From Alphaproteobacteria bacterium (GTDB taxonomy: Bacteria > Pseudomonadota > Alphaproteobacteria > Thalassobaculales > Thalassobaculaceae), in contig JANSYS010000001.1 in assembly GCA_024742275.1 (NCBI GenBank), positions 124,001 through 188,000 on the forward strand: DNA of 64,000 bases. The letters run 5' to 3'. The position numbers and the translations under genes were made by a program. A model generated the notes under the pieces. The model ran no database searches, was not told the origin of the DNA, and saw nothing but the letters and a program-made list of their open reading frames with translations. Positions 4,293 through 59,034 of the stretch are shown piece by piece (position 1 is the stretch's first letter; every line of letters starts with the position of its first letter).

Positions 4293-5005
4293 ACGATCTC
4301 GGCGACATCTGGGTCTACCTCTCGTCCAGTCCCCTGCTTCACCTGACGACGACGCTCGTCGCCTATCTGATCGGCGCCCGGCTGTACCGACGCTTCAACC
4401 TGAACCCGCTCCTCAACCCGGTGCTCATTGCCGTCGTGATCCTCGTGAGCGTGCTGCTGGTCACCGATACCGACTACGCGACCTATTTCGAAGGCGCCCA
4501 GTTCGTTCACTTCCTGCTCGGCCCGGCGACCGTCGCGCTGGCGATCCCGCTCTACAATCAGATCGACCGGGTGCGGCGCTCTGCGGTTGCTCTTCTGAGC
4601 GCGCTGGTGCTCGGCTCGCTGTCCGCGGCGGCCAGCGCGGCGGCGATCGCCTGGGGCCTTGGAGCGGGACCGGAAGTGGTCGCGTCGATCGCACCGAAGT
4701 CGGTCACCACGCCCATTGCCATGGGCATCTCTGAGAAACTGGGCGGCTTGCCGTCGCTGACGGCCGTGCTCGTCATTCTGACCGGGGTCCTCGGCGCGAC
4801 CCTGGGCCCGCTGCTGCTGAACCTCCTGCGGATCCGCGACTGGCGGGCACGAGGACTGGCGATCGGTGTCGCGGGCCACGGTATCGGCACCGCTCGGGCC
4901 ATGCAGGTCAGCGAGATCGCCGGCGCCTTCGCCGGTCTCGCCATGGGCCTCAACGCGCTCGCCACGGCGATCCTGTTACCCCTGATCTGGGCCTGGGTCT
5001 TCTGA
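4289..5005 (+). CDS. lrgB: LrgB family membrane protein
   Basis: This 238-residue polytopic inner-membrane protein is the usual partner of LrgA. Recognisable family segments are GPATVALAIPLYNQ and APKSVTTPIAMGISEKLGG, followed by GHGIGTARAMQ near the end. It begins with GTG at 4289, overlapping the lrgA stop (GTGA), which indicates translational coupling. A hairpin at 5016-5047 follows the stop codon. The LrgAB pair is implicated in cell-lysis control or in plastidic glycolate/glycerate-type and pyruvate transport, and the substrate here is unknown. Confidence 0.9.
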   Translation: MNDLGDIWVYLSSSPLLHLTTTLVAYLIGARLYRRFNLNPLLNPVLIAVVILVSVLLVTDTDYATYFEGAQFVHFLLGPATVALAIPLYNQIDRVRRSAVALLSALVLGSLSAAASAAAIAWGLGAGPEVVASIAPKSVTTPIAMGISEKLGGLPSLTAVLVILTGVLGATLGPLLLNLLRIRDWRARGLAIGVAGHGIGTARAMQVSEIAGAFAGLAMGLNALATAILLPLIWAWVF

Positions 5006-5015
5006 ACTCCCTATG

Positions 5016-5047
5016 AGGGGCGACGGGACTTGGGGCTGGTCGCCCCT
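5016..5047. terminator. Inverted repeat between convergent genes, likely bidirectional terminator
   Basis: AGGGGCGAC at 5016-5024 and GTCGCCCCT at 5039-5047 form a perfect 9-bp stem with a 14-base loop, between the lrgB stop and the stop of the decarboxylase gene on the other strand. No long T-tract follows, so termination strength is uncertain. Confidence 0.55.
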
Positions 5048-5100
5048 ATGGGATTTCTGGTCCCTGGCCAAGTGCCTCCCATTCACCGACTGAACAGCCA

Positions 5101-6513
5101 TCAATTCGCCGCAAGTTCGCGGATCACGGACCAGCCCTCTTCAACATGGCGTTGCTCGGTGGTCGTCTGGCCGATCGACATGCGGATGACGTAGCAACCG
5201 TTCACCCGATTCTGGGTGAGATAGATCCGGCCGTCATCGTTGATCCTGTGTAGCAACGCCTCGTTCAGACGGTCGAGCTCGGCCGGGGCGTCCACACCGC
5301 GCGGGTGATAGCGGAAATTGATCAGCGACAAAACCGGCGGCGCCATGACTTCAAAGTCAGGGTCGGCCTCGACCCAATCCGCGAACAGCCCGCCCAGGCG
5401 GACATGCTCGCGGATGATCGCCTGCAGCCCTTCCACCCCGTAGCTGCGGATCACGAACCAGAGCTTCAGCGCCCGGAACCGGCGGCCCAGCGGTACGCCC
5501 CAGTCGCGGTAGTCGATGACCGCATCGGCCTCCCGGCTCTTCAGGAACTCCGGCAGGATCGAGAAGGTGCGGACCAGGGCGTCCGGGTCCTTCACGTAAT
5601 GGGCCGAGCAGTCGAAATTGGTCAGCAGCCATTTATGCGGGTTGAAGACCACGCTGTCGGCCAGCTCGATCCCGTCGAACATCCAACGGTGCTCGGGGCA
5701 GATCAGGGCGCTGCCGGCCCAGGCGGCGTCCACATGCAGGAAGATTTCGTGGCGCCGACAGAGCTCACCGATCTGCCGCAGCGGATCGACCGCTCCGACA
5801 CCGGTGCCGCCAACCGACGCGACGACGCACGCCGGACGGACGCCCGCAGCGAGATCGCTCTCGATCGCAGCCTCCAGCGCATCCACCCTCAGCCGAAACG
5901 ACTCGTCCACCGCGATCTTGCGGAACCCGGCGAGGCCAAGTCCGGCGATCTTCACGTTCTTCTCGGTCGCCGAGTGAGTCTGCTCCGACGTGTAGACCGC
6001 CATCGGCGGGTGCGCCCTCAATCCTTCCGAATTGACCGCCCAACCCGTCGCCTTCTCCCGTGCCGTCAGGATCGCGGCCAGAATGGCGCTGGAGGCGCTG
6101 TCCTGAATGACCCCGGTGAATCCGTCCGGCATGCCCACCATCTGCCGTAGCCAGTCCAGGACCCTGGTCTCCATCTCGGTCGCGGCCGGGCTGGTCTGCC
6201 ATAGCATGCACTGGGCGCCGAGGGTCGCGGTGAGCATCTCAGCCAGGACCGAGGGCGGGCTCGAGTTTGCGGGGAAGTAAGCGAAGAAGCGCGGGTGCTG
6301 CCAGTGTGTGACCCCTGGGAGAATGTCCCGCTGGAAGTCCGCGACGATCGTCTCCATCGCCTCTCCGGTCTCTGGCGGCCCTTCCGGAAGCCGCGCGGCG
6401 ATCTCGCCGGGCGCGGTCTGGGCCCGAACCGGATATTGCTCCACCCCCTCCAGGAAATCGGCCATCCAGTCGACCATGGCGTGGGCGTGTCGGCGGAACT
6501 CCTCCGGCGTCAT
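5101..6513 (-). CDS. Pyridoxal-phosphate-dependent amino-acid decarboxylase (group II, aromatic type)
   Basis: This 470-residue cytosolic enzyme belongs to the group II decarboxylases that include aromatic-L-amino-acid decarboxylase. The substrate-region motif WQHPRFFAYFP lies at 71-81, the cofactor-stacking His is at 180 (TSEQTHSA), the HVDAAWAG Asp is at 262, and the Schiff-base Lys is at 294 in NPHKW. It is full length. It begins 10 bases after the stop of the LysM/M23 gene and is probably read through from it. The amine product cannot be predicted; an aromatic substrate is most likely. Confidence 0.87.
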   Translation of the reverse strand: MTPEEFRRHAHAMVDWMADFLEGVEQYPVRAQTAPGEIAARLPEGPPETGEAMETIVADFQRDILPGVTHWQHPRFFAYFPANSSPPSVLAEMLTATLGAQCMLWQTSPAATEMETRVLDWLRQMVGMPDGFTGVIQDSASSAILAAILTAREKATGWAVNSEGLRAHPPMAVYTSEQTHSATEKNVKIAGLGLAGFRKIAVDESFRLRVDALEAAIESDLAAGVRPACVVASVGGTGVGAVDPLRQIGELCRRHEIFLHVDAAWAGSALICPEHRWMFDGIELADSVVFNPHKWLLTNFDCSAHYVKDPDALVRTFSILPEFLKSREADAVIDYRDWGVPLGRRFRALKLWFVIRSYGVEGLQAIIREHVRLGGLFADWVEADPDFEVMAPPVLSLINFRYHPRGVDAPAELDRLNEALLHRINDDGRIYLTQNRVNGCYVIRMSIGQTTTEQRHVEEGWSVIRELAAN

Positions 6514-6523
6514 GGGCGGCAGC

Positions 6524-7687
6524 CTACTCGACGACCAGCATCGAGACCTGCGCCGGCGGAAGCTGCTTGCGCGGGTCGACCGGACGCGGGCCTTTGCGAA
6601 TCTCGAAATGGAGTTGCGGTTCCGAGACGTTGCCGGTCTGCCCGACCGTGGCGATGACCTGGCCTCGCTGCACCTTGTCTCCGCGATTCACAAGGAGCCT
6701 GTCGGCGTGGGCATAGGCTGTCGTGTATCCGCCATCGTGTTTGATCAGCAGAAGGTTTCCGAAGCCCCGTAGCTCGTTGCCCGCGTAGACCACGATGCCG
6801 TTCTCGGCCGCCCGAATCTCGGAGCCGGCCGGCGCCAGAATGTTGATACCGTCGTTGTGGAGTCCGCCTTCGCGCGGTCCGAAGCCGGAGACCACCCGCC
6901 CCCTCACCGGCCAGGCGAACCCTCTTCCGGTCCGCGACGGCGGCGTCAGCGATACGGTGCGCGCAGCAACGGCAGGGCTGGTGCGGACGACGACCGGTGC
7001 TGTCTGCCCCCCGCTCCCCGTGGCGTCGGCGATCGCCTTTGGTCTCGGCTGCGGCAGCGGAGCGCCGGACGACGAAGTCGGCGGTACGGGCTGCGATGCG
7101 GTGCGGGCGGTCGGGAAATGGAGCTGTCCGCCGCCGCTCCACGGCTTCCCGGCTGTGCCGCCGGACGGAGCGGTACCAGAGCCGGAGACCGCACCCGACG
7201 CTGCGCCGGCCGTACCTCTCGGCTCGGGAACCATCCTTGGCGCGCGAGCGGCCACGGACACCCCTGACGGCGGCGGCGCCACTCGCGACCCAGGTAGCCG
7301 GAGCGTCTCACCCACCCGGATCAGGTAGGGCGGCCGCAGATTGTTGGCGACGACCAGGGAACGCATCGACACGCCGTATCGCTGGGCGATCTCCGACACG
7401 GTATCACCCGATCGCACGATATGGACCGCACCGCCGGGCATCCGCAAACGGTCGCCGGGCCTGAGCAGATACGGCGGACGCAACCCATTCGCATCGATGA
7501 TCTCCCGCGGGCTGACGCCATAGCGCTGAGAAAGCTTGTAGACATTGTCTCCCGGCCGCACGGTGATGACGCCGCCGGCAGGGACGCCTGCCGAACTGGT
7601 GGGCCCGTTCACGGCACGCGGCTGCGAGCTCACGGCGCACCCGGCCATGAGCAATCCGACAACGGCGAGGAGAACTGCCGGTTTCAC
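6524..7687 (-). CDS. nlpD: LysM/M23 NlpD- or DipM-type peptidoglycan lipoprotein
   Basis: The protein has a lipoprotein signal (LLMAGC, Cys16) and two LysM peptidoglycan-binding repeats at about residues 40-85 and 89-133. A Pro/Ser/Gly-rich linker leads to a C-terminal M23 domain from about residue 265. The M23 core shows GFGPREGGLHNDGINI, GGYTTAYAHADRL and QLHFEIR. The usual H-x-G-x-D metal motif reads HNDGIN, so zinc binding is doubtful. NlpD and DipM, which resemble it, activate amidases during division without cutting peptidoglycan themselves. It follows pcm and surE as in many proteobacteria. Confidence 0.85.
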   Translation of the reverse strand: MKPAVLLAVVGLLMAGCAVSSQPRAVNGPTSSAGVPAGGVITVRPGDNVYKLSQRYGVSPREIIDANGLRPPYLLRPGDRLRMPGGAVHIVRSGDTVSEIAQRYGVSMRSLVVANNLRPPYLIRVGETLRLPGSRVAPPPSGVSVAARAPRMVPEPRGTAGAASGAVSGSGTAPSGGTAGKPWSGGGQLHFPTARTASQPVPPTSSSGAPLPQPRPKAIADATGSGGQTAPVVVRTSPAVAARTVSLTPPSRTGRGFAWPVRGRVVSGFGPREGGLHNDGINILAPAGSEIRAAENGIVVYAGNELRGFGNLLLIKHDGGYTTAYAHADRLLVNRGDKVQRGQVIATVGQTGNVSEPQLHFEIRKGPRPVDPRKQLPPAQVSMLVVE

Positions 7688-54384: not shown

Positions 54385-55296
54385 TCAAGGTTTTATCCCC
54401 GATAGAAGCCAATCTCTAATCCTTACTGTATTTCGGGTTATTGGTCGATCATCGGGCCAGACAACATGAAAGCCGAGGCCGGTCCTATGAACATGATTGC
54501 TCGCCGAAATCAGAATGCCTTGTTCAACCATAGGATCAGTCAAATGCTTCCAGCCAAGCGCGATCCCCTGCCCTCCCAGCACGGCCTGAACGACCAGAAC
54601 ATAGTCGTTGATGAGTAACCCTTTTGCGCGGGACGGGGGAGCGACGCCAACGGCTTTGAACCAATCTTCCCAGTCGAGAGTCGGCCGGAACGGCTCCTCT
54701 AGATGGATCAGTCGATGCGCGGCGGCGATTTCAGCGACACTTCCGGGCATGCCATTCGCTTCGACGTAGCTGGGAGCGACAATGGCTGTGACCTCCTCCT
54801 CCACCAATAGGGCATCGCCACAGCCCGGCCAGTCGCCGGAACGCCCGGTACGGATGCCAAGCGGTAACCCCTCCCGTCGCAGATCCACGTTGCGATCCGA
54901 TGTCTGGATCCGCAGATCAATGTCCGGAAGATCGTCCCGCAACCGTGCCAGCCTTGGCAGCATCCAGTAGCTGGCGAAAGCCGTGGAGGCCGACAGGGTT
55001 ACATGTCGATCGCTACCCTGTGCCTTCAGCTCCTCGGCCGACTTTCGGATATGCGTGAGACCAAGAGAAACATCCGCATGGAACCGCTCTCCGGCCTCTG
55101 TCAGGGCGATCGAGCGGTGACGACGGTTGAACAGAGGAACACCGAGATCGCGCTCCAGGTTGCGGATAGCGAAGCTCACCGCGGCCTGGGTCATTGCGAG
55201 CTCCTCCGCCGCTCTGGTGAAACTTCCGAGCCTTCCAGCAGCCTCGAAGACGATCAGAGCACCTGGCGACGGAAGAAGCGAACGCAGACTTTGCAT
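54385..55296 (-). CDS. LysR-family transcriptional regulator (GcvA-like)
   Basis: The 303-residue protein begins MQSLRSLLPSPGALIVFEAA and has the GcvA-type helix-turn-helix GSFTRAAEELAMTQAAVSF, then FNRRHRSIALTEAGERF. GcvA-like regulators often control glycine, one-carbon or antibiotic-resistance genes. It is transcribed away from the MttB-family gene across 104 bases and is the best candidate regulator of that operon. An AT-rich spacer of about 140 bases separates it from the other LysR gene. Confidence 0.91.
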   Translation of the reverse strand: MQSLRSLLPSPGALIVFEAAGRLGSFTRAAEELAMTQAAVSFAIRNLERDLGVPLFNRRHRSIALTEAGERFHADVSLGLTHIRKSAEELKAQGSDRHVTLSASTAFASYWMLPRLARLRDDLPDIDLRIQTSDRNVDLRREGLPLGIRTGRSGDWPGCGDALLVEEEVTAIVAPSYVEANGMPGSVAEIAAAHRLIHLEEPFRPTLDWEDWFKAVGVAPPSRAKGLLINDYVLVVQAVLGGQGIALGWKHLTDPMVEQGILISASNHVHRTGLGFHVVWPDDRPITRNTVRIRDWLLSGIKP

Positions 55297-55309
55297 AAGT
55301 GCAGTTTAT
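55295..55309. promoter_or_regulatory. LysR-type T-N11-A palindrome
   Basis: ATAAGTGCAGTTTAT has ATAA and TTAT arms around seven bases, containing T-N11-A, the classic LysR box. It overlaps the start codon of the LysR gene and lies about 90 bases before the MttB gene, a position suited to autoregulation or divergent control. Confidence 0.35.
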
Positions 55310-55400
55310 CAGAAGGCCAACATAATTAAAGTATCAGGCGGCTTTCGGGCGATGCCAGACTGGCTTTCCTAATAGTTTCTACTGCCGTGGAGGACCGGTT

Positions 55401-56975
55401 ATGCCTGTCGCAACAATCCCCCCGAGTTCCGGCACGGCTGCCCAGATCGACGGCGTCAGCCGGGCCCGCGATCGTCGCCGACAGCGCCGCGCTCGATCGA
55501 CGACGAGGCAGGGCGCGCCCAACATCGTCCGACGGATACCGACCTACGACATCCTCGACGAAGAGAGCCTGGTCCGGATCGAGACCACGGCCGAACGTAT
55601 CCTGGCGGAGGTGGGTATCGAGTTCCGCGGCGGCGATGCCCGAAGCTTGGAGCTTTGGCGAGAAGCCGGTGCGGACGTGACCGGCGAGACTGTTCGCTTC
55701 CCGCCGGGTCTGCTGCCCGAGGTCCTGCGGTCCGCGCCATCGAACTTCACACAAATCGCCCGAAACCCGGCCCGTTCCGTGGAGATTGGCGGATCGAACG
55801 TGGTGTTCTCACCCGCCTACGGATCTCCGTTCGTGATGGATCTCGATCGCGGTCGCCGCTATGCGACACTGGCGGATTTCGAAAACTTTGTGAAACTCGC
55901 CTACAGCTCACCCCATCTTCACCACTCCGGCGGGACGGTGGTCGAACCCACCGACGTCCCGGTCAACAAGCGCCATCTCGACATGGTCTATGCCCACATC
56001 AGGTTTTCCGACCGTGGGTTCATGGGGTCGGTCACAGCGGAGGAACGGGCCGAGGACTCCATCGAAATGGCGCGCCTCCTGTTCGGCGCCGATAGACTGG
56101 AGACCGCCTGCGCGATCCTGGCCAATTTCAACGTCAACTCGCCCCTTGTCTGGGACGCGACCATGACCCGCGGAATCCGGGCCTACGCCCGCGCCAACCA
56201 GGGCACGGTGATCGTTCCTTTCATCCTCGGCGGTGCGATGGGACCGGTCACCAGCGCCGGCGCCATCGCCCAGGCCCATGCCGAAACCCTGGTCGGGTGC
56301 GCCCTGGCTCAATTGGAGCGCCCCGGAGCACCGGTCGTCTACGGCAACTTCCTGTCGTCCATGTCGCTACGCTCCGGTTCGCCGACCTTCGGAACGCCCG
56401 AACCGGCTGCGGGATCGCTTGTCGTCGGCCAACTCGCCCGGCGCGCGGGCTTGCCGCTGCGCTGTTCCGGTGCCTTCACCACATCGAAGCTGCCCGACGC
56501 CCAGTCGATGATGGAGAGCGCAACCTCCATGCAGGCTGCGATCCTCTGCGGCGCGAACTTCATCCTCCACGCCGCGGGTTTTCTCGATGGCCTGCTCTCC
56601 ATGTCCTACGAGAAGTTCGTCCTCGACGCCGACTACTGCGGCGCCCTGGCCCGCTATTGCGAGGGGGTAAGCGTAACCGAAAACGATCTCGCGCTGGACG
56701 CGTTCCGGGAAGTCGGGCCGGGTAACCACTTCTTCGGATGCGGTCATACGATGGCGAACTACGAGACCGCCTTCTTCGATGCGGCTCTATCGGACAACAC
56801 CACGTACGAGGAGTGGAGCGAGGCCGGCGGCGAAGACAGCGCGGGTCGCGCCAACCGGGCCTGGAAACGTATGCTGGACGAGTACGAGGCACCGCCGCTC
56901 GACGAAGCGATCGATGAGGCGTTGAAGGATTTCATCGCCCGGCGCAAACGCTCCATGCCGGACGCCTGGTACTGA
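55401..56975 (+). CDS. Trimethylamine methyltransferase (MttB) family protein, non-pyrrolysine
   Basis: The 524-residue protein matches the MttB superfamily: a TIM-barrel methyltransferase that moves a methyl from a quaternary or tertiary amine to a corrinoid protein. Segments such as GGTVVEPTDVPVN, TMTRGIRAYARANQGTVI, GSPTFGTPEPAAGS and ASM-like MMESATSMQAAILCGANF fit it. It reads through without an amber codon, so it is a non-pyrrolysine member like glycine-betaine methyltransferase MtgB. The substrate is probably a betaine-like amine. No corrinoid protein or activase is in the window. Confidence 0.85.
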   Translation: MPVATIPPSSGTAAQIDGVSRARDRRRQRRARSTTRQGAPNIVRRIPTYDILDEESLVRIETTAERILAEVGIEFRGGDARSLELWREAGADVTGETVRFPPGLLPEVLRSAPSNFTQIARNPARSVEIGGSNVVFSPAYGSPFVMDLDRGRRYATLADFENFVKLAYSSPHLHHSGGTVVEPTDVPVNKRHLDMVYAHIRFSDRGFMGSVTAEERAEDSIEMARLLFGADRLETACAILANFNVNSPLVWDATMTRGIRAYARANQGTVIVPFILGGAMGPVTSAGAIAQAHAETLVGCALAQLERPGAPVVYGNFLSSMSLRSGSPTFGTPEPAAGSLVVGQLARRAGLPLRCSGAFTTSKLPDAQSMMESATSMQAAILCGANFILHAAGFLDGLLSMSYEKFVLDADYCGALARYCEGVSVTENDLALDAFREVGPGNHFFGCGHTMANYETAFFDAALSDNTTYEEWSEAGGEDSAGRANRAWKRMLDEYEAPPLDEAIDEALKDFIARRKRSMPDAWY

Positions 56976-56997
56976 GCGCCGACCGTTGGAGAGACGC

Positions 56998-59034
56998 ATG
57001 TCGACAGACCCGTTGCTGCAGCCCTACCGCCTCAAGCACCTCACCCTGCGAAACCGGCTGATGTCGACGGCCCATGAACCGGCCTATTCCGAAGACGGCA
57101 TGCCGACCGAGCGGTACCGCCTCTATCACGCGGAGAAAGCCAAAGGCGGCATCGCGCTGACCATGACGGCTGGCTCGGCGGTGGTCAGCGCCGACAGCCC
57201 TGCCGCCTTCGGAAATCTCTTCGCGTACAAGGACGAGATCGTCCCCTGGCTGCGGGAGCTTAGCGACGCCTGCCACGAGCACGGCTCGGCCATAATGATG
57301 CAGATCACCCATCTGGGTCGGCGCACCAACTGGAATCATTCCGACTGGCTCCCGGTTCTTGCCCCATCCCCGGTCCGCGAACCAGCCCACCGCGCCTTTC
57401 CCAAAGAGGCCGAGGATTGGGACCTTGACCGCATCGTCGCCGACTATGCCGACGCGGCGGAGCGCATGCGGGAGGGTGGGCTCGACGGGATCGAGATCGA
57501 GGCCTACGGCCATTTTCTCGACGGATTCTGGTCGCCGGCCACCAATCGGCGCACCGACGAGTACAATGGCTCCCTGGACAACCGGCTGCGCTTCACCTGG
57601 CGGGTGCTCGAGGCCATGCGTGACCGCGTCGGTCCGGATTTCCTGATCGGCCTCCGCATGGTCGCGGACGAGGATTGGGACAAGGGCTTGAGTCGAGAGG
57701 ACGGCATGGAGATCGCCCGTCGGCTCGCAGCGAGCGGCAAAGTCGACTTCCTGAACCTGATCCGCGGCCATATCGAGAGCGACCGGGCGCTGTCCGACGT
57801 CATCCCGATTCAGGGAACACCTGCCGCTCCGCACTTGGATTTCTGTGGCGAAGTCCGCGAGGAAACCGATTTTCCGATCTTCCACGCCGCCCGGATCAGC
57901 GACGTCGCCACGGCCCGCCATGCCATCGCCGAGGGCAAACTCGACATGGTCGGCATGACCCGCCCGCACATCGCGGACCCGCATATAGCCAATAAGGTCG
58001 CCGCCGGTCGGGAAGCGGATATCAGACCCTGCGTCGGGGCAACCTATTGCCTCGATCGGATCTACGAGGGTCACGAGGCGCTCTGCATCCACAATCCGGC
58101 GACCGGCCGCGAGCGCACCATCCCGCATGTCATCGTCCGCAGCGACGGGCCGGCAAAACGAGTTGTCATCGTCGGAGCGGGTCCGGCCGGCCTGGAGGCG
58201 GCAAGGGTCGCGGGAGAACGCGGACACGATGTGGTTCTTTTCGAGGCAGCGGACCGGCCGGGCGGACAGGTCCGCCTCGCCGCCAGGGTGCCTCGCCGGC
58301 GCGAACTGATCGGTATCGTCGACTGGCGTGCCGAGCAATGCGCCAAGCTTGGGATCGATATGCGGTTCAACCGCTATGCAGAGCTCGACGACGTTCTTGG
58401 AGAACGGCCGGACATCGTCCTGATCGCGACGGGCGGCCTGCCGAACACCGAGATCGTCCATGGCGCGGATCTGGTGGTCAGCACATGGGATATCCTGTCG
58501 GGCGATGTGAAACCCGGCGATCGGGTTCTGATCTACGACGACAACGCCGCCCATCAGGGCCTTTCGGCGGGCGAGCTCATCGCCAACGGAGGCGCTCAAT
58601 TGGAGATCGTGACGCCGGAGCGTTTCTTCGCCGTCGACATCGGCGGCCTCAACCACGTGGCCTATGCTCAGACTTTCGACCGCACCGGTACGAGGATCAC
58701 GATCAACAAACGGGTCCTGGCGGTGCGCCGGTCCGGGAACGCGTTGATCGCGGAGATCGGTTCCGACTATTCCGAACGGATCGAAGAGCGCGAGGTCGAC
58801 CAGGTCGTCGTCGAGCACGGCACCCTTCCCCTGGATGCGTTGTATTTCGACCTCAAGCCGGGCAGCCGCAACGGTGGTGAGGTCGACTACGATGCGTTGA
58901 TTGGCGGCCTTCCCCAAGCGGTGACGCGCAATCCCGACGGCGCGTATCAGCTTTTCCGCATCGGCGACGCTGTGGCGTCGCGCAACATCCACGCGGCGAT
59001 CTACGACGCCATACGACTGGTCAAGGACTTCTGA
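56998..59034 (+). CDS. DgcA/TMADH-like Fe-S flavoprotein oxidoreductase
   Basis: The 678-residue protein has an N-terminal OYE-type FMN barrel (1-340), a Cys cluster and a C-terminal FAD/NAD-type domain (VVIVGAGPAGLEAARVAGE near 385). This is the layout of trimethylamine and dimethylglycine (DgcA) dehydrogenases. The cluster reads RPCVGATYCLDRIY with Cys345, Cys351 and a further Cys363, but Ala348 where TMADH has Cys348. Glu27 stands where TMADH has the FMN-linked Cys30, so FMN is not covalently bound that way. It lies 22 bases after the MttB gene, with GGAG before ATG 56998. Confidence 0.87.
   Translation: MSTDPLLQPYRLKHLTLRNRLMSTAHEPAYSEDGMPTERYRLYHAEKAKGGIALTMTAGSAVVSADSPAAFGNLFAYKDEIVPWLRELSDACHEHGSAIMMQITHLGRRTNWNHSDWLPVLAPSPVREPAHRAFPKEAEDWDLDRIVADYADAAERMREGGLDGIEIEAYGHFLDGFWSPATNRRTDEYNGSLDNRLRFTWRVLEAMRDRVGPDFLIGLRMVADEDWDKGLSREDGMEIARRLAASGKVDFLNLIRGHIESDRALSDVIPIQGTPAAPHLDFCGEVREETDFPIFHAARISDVATARHAIAEGKLDMVGMTRPHIADPHIANKVAAGREADIRPCVGATYCLDRIYEGHEALCIHNPATGRERTIPHVIVRSDGPAKRVVIVGAGPAGLEAARVAGERGHDVVLFEAADRPGGQVRLAARVPRRRELIGIVDWRAEQCAKLGIDMRFNRYAELDDVLGERPDIVLIATGGLPNTEIVHGADLVVSTWDILSGDVKPGDRVLIYDDNAAHQGLSAGELIANGGAQLEIVTPERFFAVDIGGLNHVAYAQTFDRTGTRITINKRVLAVRRSGNALIAEIGSDYSERIEEREVDQVVVEHGTLPLDALYFDLKPGSRNGGEVDYDALIGGLPQAVTRNPDGAYQLFRIGDAVASRNIHAAIYDAIRLVKDF

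Follow-up and report, generated by a model that had tools for sequence, protein, structure and literature searches.

An MttB-family methyltransferase gene paired with an StcD/HpbA-type flavoprotein gene: a proposed corrinoid-linked route for a cyclic betaine in aerobic bacteria

In pathways that employ the N-methylproline demethylases StcD and HpbA, the first demethylation is carried out by a Rieske oxygenase. Stachydrine (proline betaine) breakdown in Paracoccus and Rhodobacter consists of two N-demethylations to proline (PMC11337228), and the pSymB-borne StcD of Sinorhizobium meliloti acts as an N-methylproline demethylase (PMC12239276). A Phaeobacter inhibens dmdA mutant still had a shorter lag phase when given stachydrine (PMC11306105). 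One corrinoid protein of Eubacterium limosum receives methyl groups from MtpB, MtcB and MtyB, whose genes lie in separate clusters, and MtpB uses proline betaine (PMC8604678). Finally, the authors who described MtgBCD in Ruegeria pomeroyi note that a genome may hold as many as seven PF06253 genes and propose that further methylated compounds serve as substrates (PMC12478193). Here, we analyze a window of 64,000 nucleotides (contig C61, positions 124001 to 188000) from a 4.69-Mb draft genome of an alphaproteobacterium of the Thalassobaculaceae (88 contigs, 97.9% complete). The window carries a gene for an MttB-family methyltransferase followed by a flavoprotein gene, with a divergent regulator upstream. 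We favor the view that the pair serves to demethylate a cyclic betaine, with proline betaine or its hydroxyproline analogue the likeliest substrate, first by way of a shared corrinoid protein, MtgC, and then by the StcD-type flavoprotein.

The first gene of the pair encodes a non-pyrrolysine member of the MttB family. By Pfam, the full-length MTTB domain (PF06253) spans residues 21 to 520 of 524 (755 bits), and the protein is a single MTTB domain with no added pterin domain. A reading made earlier from the sequence alone, hereafter the sequence-only reading, had also called the protein non-pyrrolysine, and the call holds, as the frame is open and Phe359 aligns with the pyrrolysine (X) of the MttB structure 7xcl. 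The nearest solved relatives are 4yyc (599 bits), 2qne and 9yce (396 bits each) and then MttB itself (121 bits); of the named enzymes in the solved set, the glycine betaine methyltransferase 9yce comes closest. A tree was built from 121 sequences, made up of the best 80 of at least 505 related loci in the contig database together with further fetched loci. The window protein falls in a clade of 90 members (support, 0.99), with 31 sequences outside; those 31 loci and a few inside ones were partly hand-picked for MtgC or StcD, and only the class sample described below is a fair comparison. The residue at position 359 is Phe in 86 of the 90 clade members and Leu in 21 of the 31 outside, a change at a catalytic position that would fit a different substrate. 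Residue 172 of the window protein is His, and Trp occupies that position in 83 of the 90. The genome holds three MttB proteins, encoded on C27, on C31 and in the window. The one on C27 (C27:201503) adjoins a gene with DAO and GCV_T domains that resembles dimethylglycine dehydrogenase (DMGDH).

The second gene encodes a flavoprotein that the sequence-only reading had called DgcA/TMADH-like. Both of its Pfam domains, Oxidored_FMN and a pyridine-nucleotide-disulphide domain, are recognized, but the assignment can be refined to the StcD/HpbA type. Over 100% of its length, the protein is 62 to 64% identical to the products of genes annotated hpbA (N-methyl-L-proline N-demethylase), and it is 61.4% identical to the product of an S. 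meliloti pSymB gene (hits H144 to H148) that we infer to be stcD. The motifs HEPAY and CVGA(T/N)YC...C are common to the window protein and its counterparts in loci L094, L095, L099 and L100. Moreover, 60 sequences of at least 58% identity carry HEP(A/S)Y on the FMN side and C(V/T)G(A/G)(T/N)(Y/F)C plus one further cysteine. The four-cysteine 4Fe-4S pattern expected of the trimethylamine/histamine dehydrogenase group was not borne out, as the second cysteine of histamine dehydrogenases 3k30 and 6de6 aligns with Ala. That group is also marked by a cysteine that binds flavin covalently, and the alignment with the histamine dehydrogenases places Glu at that position. On these sequence grounds the flavoprotein appears to be of the N-methylproline demethylase type, and we propose a demethylase role for it. 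A second flavoprotein type, here called Flav2, is about 33% identical, has four cysteines and lies beside some MttB genes of the clade.

Pairing of the two genes exceeds chance. Within 4.5 kb of the MttB gene, an StcD-type gene is found in 62 of the 90 clade loci versus 1 of the 31 outside, the outside set being partly hand-picked, and StcD or Flav2 is found in 71 of the 90. StcD lies downstream on the same strand in 58 of the 62 (median gap, 47.5 bp), and in 37 of the 90 a LysR match lies no more than 800 bp away in divergent orientation. The class sample, an even draw of 144 genomes from the same class in which loci were not picked, agrees. There, 38 MttB matches of at least 50% identity were typed, with own-genome rows excluded, and StcD adjoined 3 of 4 matches at 61 to 63% identity versus 1 of 34 at 50 to 58% (P = 0.0019). 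Among the matches listed, members of the Alpha-, Beta- and Gammaproteobacteria, as well as metagenome-assembled genomes (MAGs) labelled Actinomycetota, carry the pair too. The comparison across relatives that had been suggested therefore finds that the two genes do co-occur. Of the recurring neighbors of the best 80 loci, the 20 that were scanned are largely housekeeping or general genes. A mirror-tree correlation of 0.79 (53 pairs, 0 of 2,000 permutations) is given no weight here, since a common species history by itself could produce it. In a separate locus (L134, genome G133), an StcD-type gene 74% identical to the window's sits next to a homocysteine S-methyltransferase-family gene (4340 to 5305 and 5553 to 7595), perhaps another first-step partner for StcD; otherwise, the neighborhoods of unlinked StcD-type genes gave no lead.

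The methyl acceptor of the window MttB is very likely a corrinoid protein. Across the class sample, MttB homologues occur in 32 of 144 genomes and an MtgC orthologue (71 to 100% identity) occurs in 30, all within the 32, such that MtgC is found in 30 of 32 genomes with MttB versus 0 of 112 others (Fisher P = 6e-29). The two MttB genomes in which MtgC was missed, G006 (810 contigs) and G062 (210 contigs), have partial MttB matches only. We did not count as MtgC 26 weaker corrinoid matches (at most 52% identity), 18 of which lie in open reading frames (ORFs) of at least 889 residues, the size of MetH. Genomes with a window-type MttB behave similarly: in a search of the genomes of 46 of the best 80 loci (L037 was absent from the set), MtgC was present at 64 to 89% identity in 44, including Comamonadaceae, Motiliproteus and MAGs labelled Actinomycetota, and the two misses were MAGs (loci L083 and L090). 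MtgC is nonetheless encoded away from the window type. It lies within 4.5 kb of 0 of 90 clade loci versus 12 of 31 outside, a set picked in part for MtgC, and within 10 kb of 0 of 4 window-type matches versus 11 of 34 paralogues of 50 to 58% identity in the typed set. The MtgC list used for the latter count omits places on contigs that carry no typed MttB match. The typed set missed one full-length match of 50% identity (G137:C60), whose contig has no StcD or MtgC match; with it added, StcD adjacency becomes 1 of 35 and MtgC proximity 11 of 35. Partial matches of 50 to 55% in G038, G062 and G006 were deliberately excluded. As the MttB gene lacks a nearby MtgC gene yet co-occurs with one, we read the pair as a donor module that lies at a distance from the shared corrinoid core it appears to supply.

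Alternatively, the MttB barrel might use a non-corrinoid acceptor, for instance by methylating folate directly. In its favor, the window holds no corrinoid gene as far as PF02607 shows, and none was seen in the 4.5 kb around each of the 90 clade members, but the co-occurrence of MttB with MtgC, both in the window-type genomes and in the class sample, and the single-domain architecture argue against it. Moreover, another acceptor is not needed, because separately encoded MttB proteins feeding one corrinoid protein are already described (PMC12478193, PMC8604678); a separate MttB with a shared corrinoid protein is an ordinary, published arrangement. We reject the non-corrinoid acceptor on the co-occurrence and regard it as highly improbable. 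The sequence-only reading had allowed for either another acceptor or a distant corrinoid protein, and it is the latter that the genome supports.

The likely corrinoid partner is encoded on contig C27. PF02607 matches the genome twice, both times on C27, once in methionine synthase and once in a two-domain MtgC-type protein (L008:9559-10527) next to genes for DUF1638 and PF13769. The true start of the MtgC gene is probably internal, because most relatives align only from about residue 70 to 90 onward. Some 142 kb from MtgC, C27 also encodes the genome's sole match to the RACo/RamA activase, together with a pterin-binding protein, MTHFR and a split MetH. The genome search proposed earlier thus recovers a corrinoid protein, RamA and a pterin-binding partner, all on C27. 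The claim that the pair lacks a corrinoid partner is accurate for the window, as far as PF02607 shows (PF02310 was not searched for on its own), and inaccurate for the genome, where MtgC, activase, DUF1638 and the pterin-binding protein are present. A corrinoid protein and activase just outside the window or co-regulated would have altered the picture; the ones found share the genome and are on another contig. DgcB and electron-transfer flavoproteins (ETF) are likewise missing from the window as described, with ETF matches on C48 only and matches to PF02754, which we take to be a domain of DgcB, on C48 and C87 only. In addition, the methionine synthase (L009:8228-11976) consists of two ORFs, with the homocysteine domain apart from the pterin, B12 and activation domains, and this split enzyme is retained alongside the MtgC system. 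Around MtgC and DUF1638 (L008:8492-13020) are genes for PF13769, a radical SAM protein and a Memo-AMMECR1 fusion.

What the module demethylates is suggested by gene context, which points to proline or hydroxyproline betaine as the probable substrate. The betaine route proposed in the sequence-only reading gains support both from the StcD/HpbA-type partner and from clade members that lie within stachydrine-type clusters. The clade locus of Rhodobacter sp. CZR27 encodes HpbA, a TetR regulator, a ProX-type transporter, a GntR regulator, an oxidoreductase, the alpha subunit of a ring-hydroxylating (Rieske-type) dioxygenase, LysR and MttB. The clade locus of Sinorhizobium fredii CCBAU 45436, about 18 kb, encodes LysR, MttB, Flav2, OpuAC, an AraC-type regulator and a Fer2-domain protein, followed by a Rieske protein, Ldh_2, an ATP-binding cassette ATPase, a second OpuAC, a P5CR-like protein and StcD. 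Thalassobaculum fulvum (80%), the closest of the best 80 loci (L014), has LysR, MttB, StcD, Flav2 and Ldh_2, and a Rhizobium cluster has Flav2 and an Ldh-family gene beside StcD, with a proline/glycine betaine transporter.

Plasmids of Aminobacter place a corrinoid gene in a similar setting. On pAA02 of A. aminovorans (L107:7780-16738), LysR, MttB (45%), a binding protein, MtgC, an enolase, Flav2 and a P5CR-like protein are encoded in a run, and the MtgC is 82% identical to that of the present genome. The best solved relatives of the enolase are 4e8g, 4izg and 4j1o (486 bits) and 2pmq and 4h2h (426 bits), presumably structures of hydroxyproline betaine epimerase, HpbD. A plasmid of Aminobacter sp. 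SR38 (L148:3633-12804) is annotated alike, with LysR, MttB, a binding protein, a B12-binding protein, an enolase, an FAD-dependent oxidoreductase and a P5CR-like protein. The run looks like a corrinoid gene within a (hydroxy)proline betaine operon. HpbD as a regular neighbor of MttB was considered and is weakened, as a Roseibium enolase beside MttB (L070) finds its best matches among other isomerases (4dye, 145 bits, versus 2pmq, 56 bits).

The Rieske oxygenase of the Rhodobacter cluster (L095) was used as a query against 36 genomes, the present one included, and neither the present genome nor that of T. fulvum gave a match. The search is able to detect homologues because 21 of the 36 genomes do match, with best identities of 37 to 76%.

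Two other substrates deserve weight. MttB might act on glycine betaine and the flavoprotein, as a DgcA-type enzyme, on dimethylglycine, still by way of the shared MtgC. We consider this unlikely, though the closest named solved enzyme is the glycine betaine methyltransferase noted above, DMGDH-like genes occur in 8 and Flav2 in 15 of the 90 clade loci, and the Sinorhizobium B11 flavoprotein (67%) sits a few genes from a carnitine cluster. The identity and motifs of the window flavoprotein are those of StcD/HpbA, however, the MttB on C27 already adjoins a DMGDH-type gene, and most clade members have Phe at the pyrrolysine-equivalent position, where most other MttB proteins have Leu. Slightly less likely again is some other betaine, with StcD-type chemistry on its demethylated product. 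Such a substrate would be consistent with clade neighbors that vary among StcD, Flav2, DMGDH-like and enolase genes and with a 68% relative in Mesorhizobium, where an enolase and an FAD-dependent oxidoreductase take their place, but the clearest contexts, those of S. fredii and Rhodobacter CZR27, are of the stachydrine type. In that Mesorhizobium locus (sp. 113-3-3, L150:4848-11128), LysR is divergent from MttB and a proline racemase-family gene is nearby; we regard it as the same module with other second-step enzymes.

Several observations weigh against a proline betaine module that hands its methyl group to MtgC. The corrinoid link is a genomic association, and G107 and G066 encode smaller corrinoid proteins (42 to 50% identity) without any MttB match. 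StcD is absent within 4.5 kb in 28 of the 90 clade loci, and both StcD and Flav2 in 19; some of the 19 are cut by contig ends (L024, L052, L085 and L093 among them), but L020, L029, L035, L060, L067, L083 and L096 are not. Flav2, which takes the place of StcD in some loci, might be an enzyme of the DgcA type, and that would suit glycine betaine. Besides the DMGDH-like genes, enolase genes lie near MttB in 4 of the 90, and substrates may vary because some clade loci carry such neighbors. Conversely, 16 of the 20 class-sample genomes with an StcD-type match have no adjoining window-type MttB, although one of them, G137, has a 55% MttB beside its StcD-type gene. Rieske homologues of at least 49% identity accompany a window-type MttB in 20 of the 35 other genomes, and the two are therefore not simple alternatives. 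The Aminobacter MttB falls outside the window clade, and a close HpbD was not found in this genome (best, 32%; 36 genomes searched). Finally, no transport, racemase or proline gene was recognized beside the pair in the window.

We nevertheless favor the cyclic betaine module, for which the following scheme may be drawn. The MttB-family protein would transfer one N-methyl group of its betaine substrate onto MtgC, with the corrinoid in the Co(I) state; the acceptor in this step is strongly indicated and the substrate less so. By analogy with the published MtgBCD model, the pterin-binding MtgD would hand the methyl group to tetrahydrofolate, while RACo/RamA and DUF1638 would keep the cobalt reduced. 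The flavoprotein, if it acts as its StcD/HpbA type predicts, would then oxidize the second N-methyl group, that of N-methylproline, to give proline and formaldehyde, with electrons probably passing to the genome's ETF. LysR is probably the activator of the two genes. Such a module would take over the role that Rieske oxygenase and StcD together have in other aerobes, its first step would need no O2, and the carbon would be kept as methyl-folate.

The genes themselves (Table 1) are where the sequence-only reading placed them, including the gap of 22 bases between the MttB stop and the flavoprotein ATG at 56998; the mechanical ORF begins at TTG 56986. The intergenic sequence has ggagg ahead of the MttB ATG at 55401, and the region is likely a control region. 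The label GcvA-like for LysR is fair, as GcvA is one of its two best NCBIfam models, though both score below cutoff (233.8 versus 288 for GcvA; 252.1 versus 324.8 for TIGR03418, the choline-sulfate regulator).

Table 1. Features of the gene pair and its regulator, in window coordinates
Feature	Position	Strand	Basis
LysR-family regulator, divergent from the pair	54385..55296	-	303-aa ORF; Pfam LysR helix-turn-helix and substrate domains
Divergent intergenic region, 104 bases, with MttB ribosome-binding site	55297..55400	.	Read from the sequence
MttB-superfamily non-pyrrolysine methyltransferase	55401..56975	+	524 aa; PF06253, 755 bits; clade and signature residues
StcD/HpbA-type FMN/FAD/Fe-S flavoprotein	56998..59034	+	Identity to hpbA-annotated and S. 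meliloti pSymB genes; motifs

Many bacteria carry several MttB-family genes without a known substrate that apparently depend on one corrinoid core. Assignment of the present clade would link vitamin B12 supply and the one-carbon pool to an osmolyte of plants and algae, would give the pathway an oxygen-independent first step, and turns an apparently orphan pair into a concrete, cheap test. It is an evenly balanced question whether the pair represents a widespread B12 route for stachydrine or hydroxyproline betaine in aerobes (Alpha-, Beta- and Gammaproteobacteria and the Actinomycetota-labelled MAGs), in which a Phe-type MttB stands in for the Rieske oxygenase, works together with StcD and has a corrinoid core in common with split methionine synthesis. 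Among the titles and abstract openings listed from an open library, none assigned an aerobic MttB-family protein to proline betaine, which does not in itself show absence from print. Proline betaine as an MttB substrate is a new guess for aerobic bacteria.

The proposed module combines parts of three described systems. Like MtgBCD of R. pomeroyi, also from aerobic Alphaproteobacteria, it has a PF06253 methyltransferase gene that is separate from the genes for a shared MtgC, MtgD, RamA and DUF1638; unlike it, the substrate published there is glycine betaine, and the available part of that paper describes no StcD-type partner (PMC12478193). Like MtpB, MtcB and MtyB of E. limosum, which work with MtqC, MtqA and RamQ, it would belong to a set of substrate-specific non-pyrrolysine MttB proteins served by one corrinoid protein, but E. 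limosum is an anaerobic acetogen, and the available part of PMC8604678 does not mention a flavoprotein acting on the second methyl group. Finally, the flavoprotein resembles StcD of S. meliloti and HpbA of Paracoccus and Rhodobacter (61 to 64% identity, the same HEPAY and CVGAxYC motifs). Those pathways begin with a Rieske oxygenase, whereas here we propose that the MttB-family protein performs the first demethylation.

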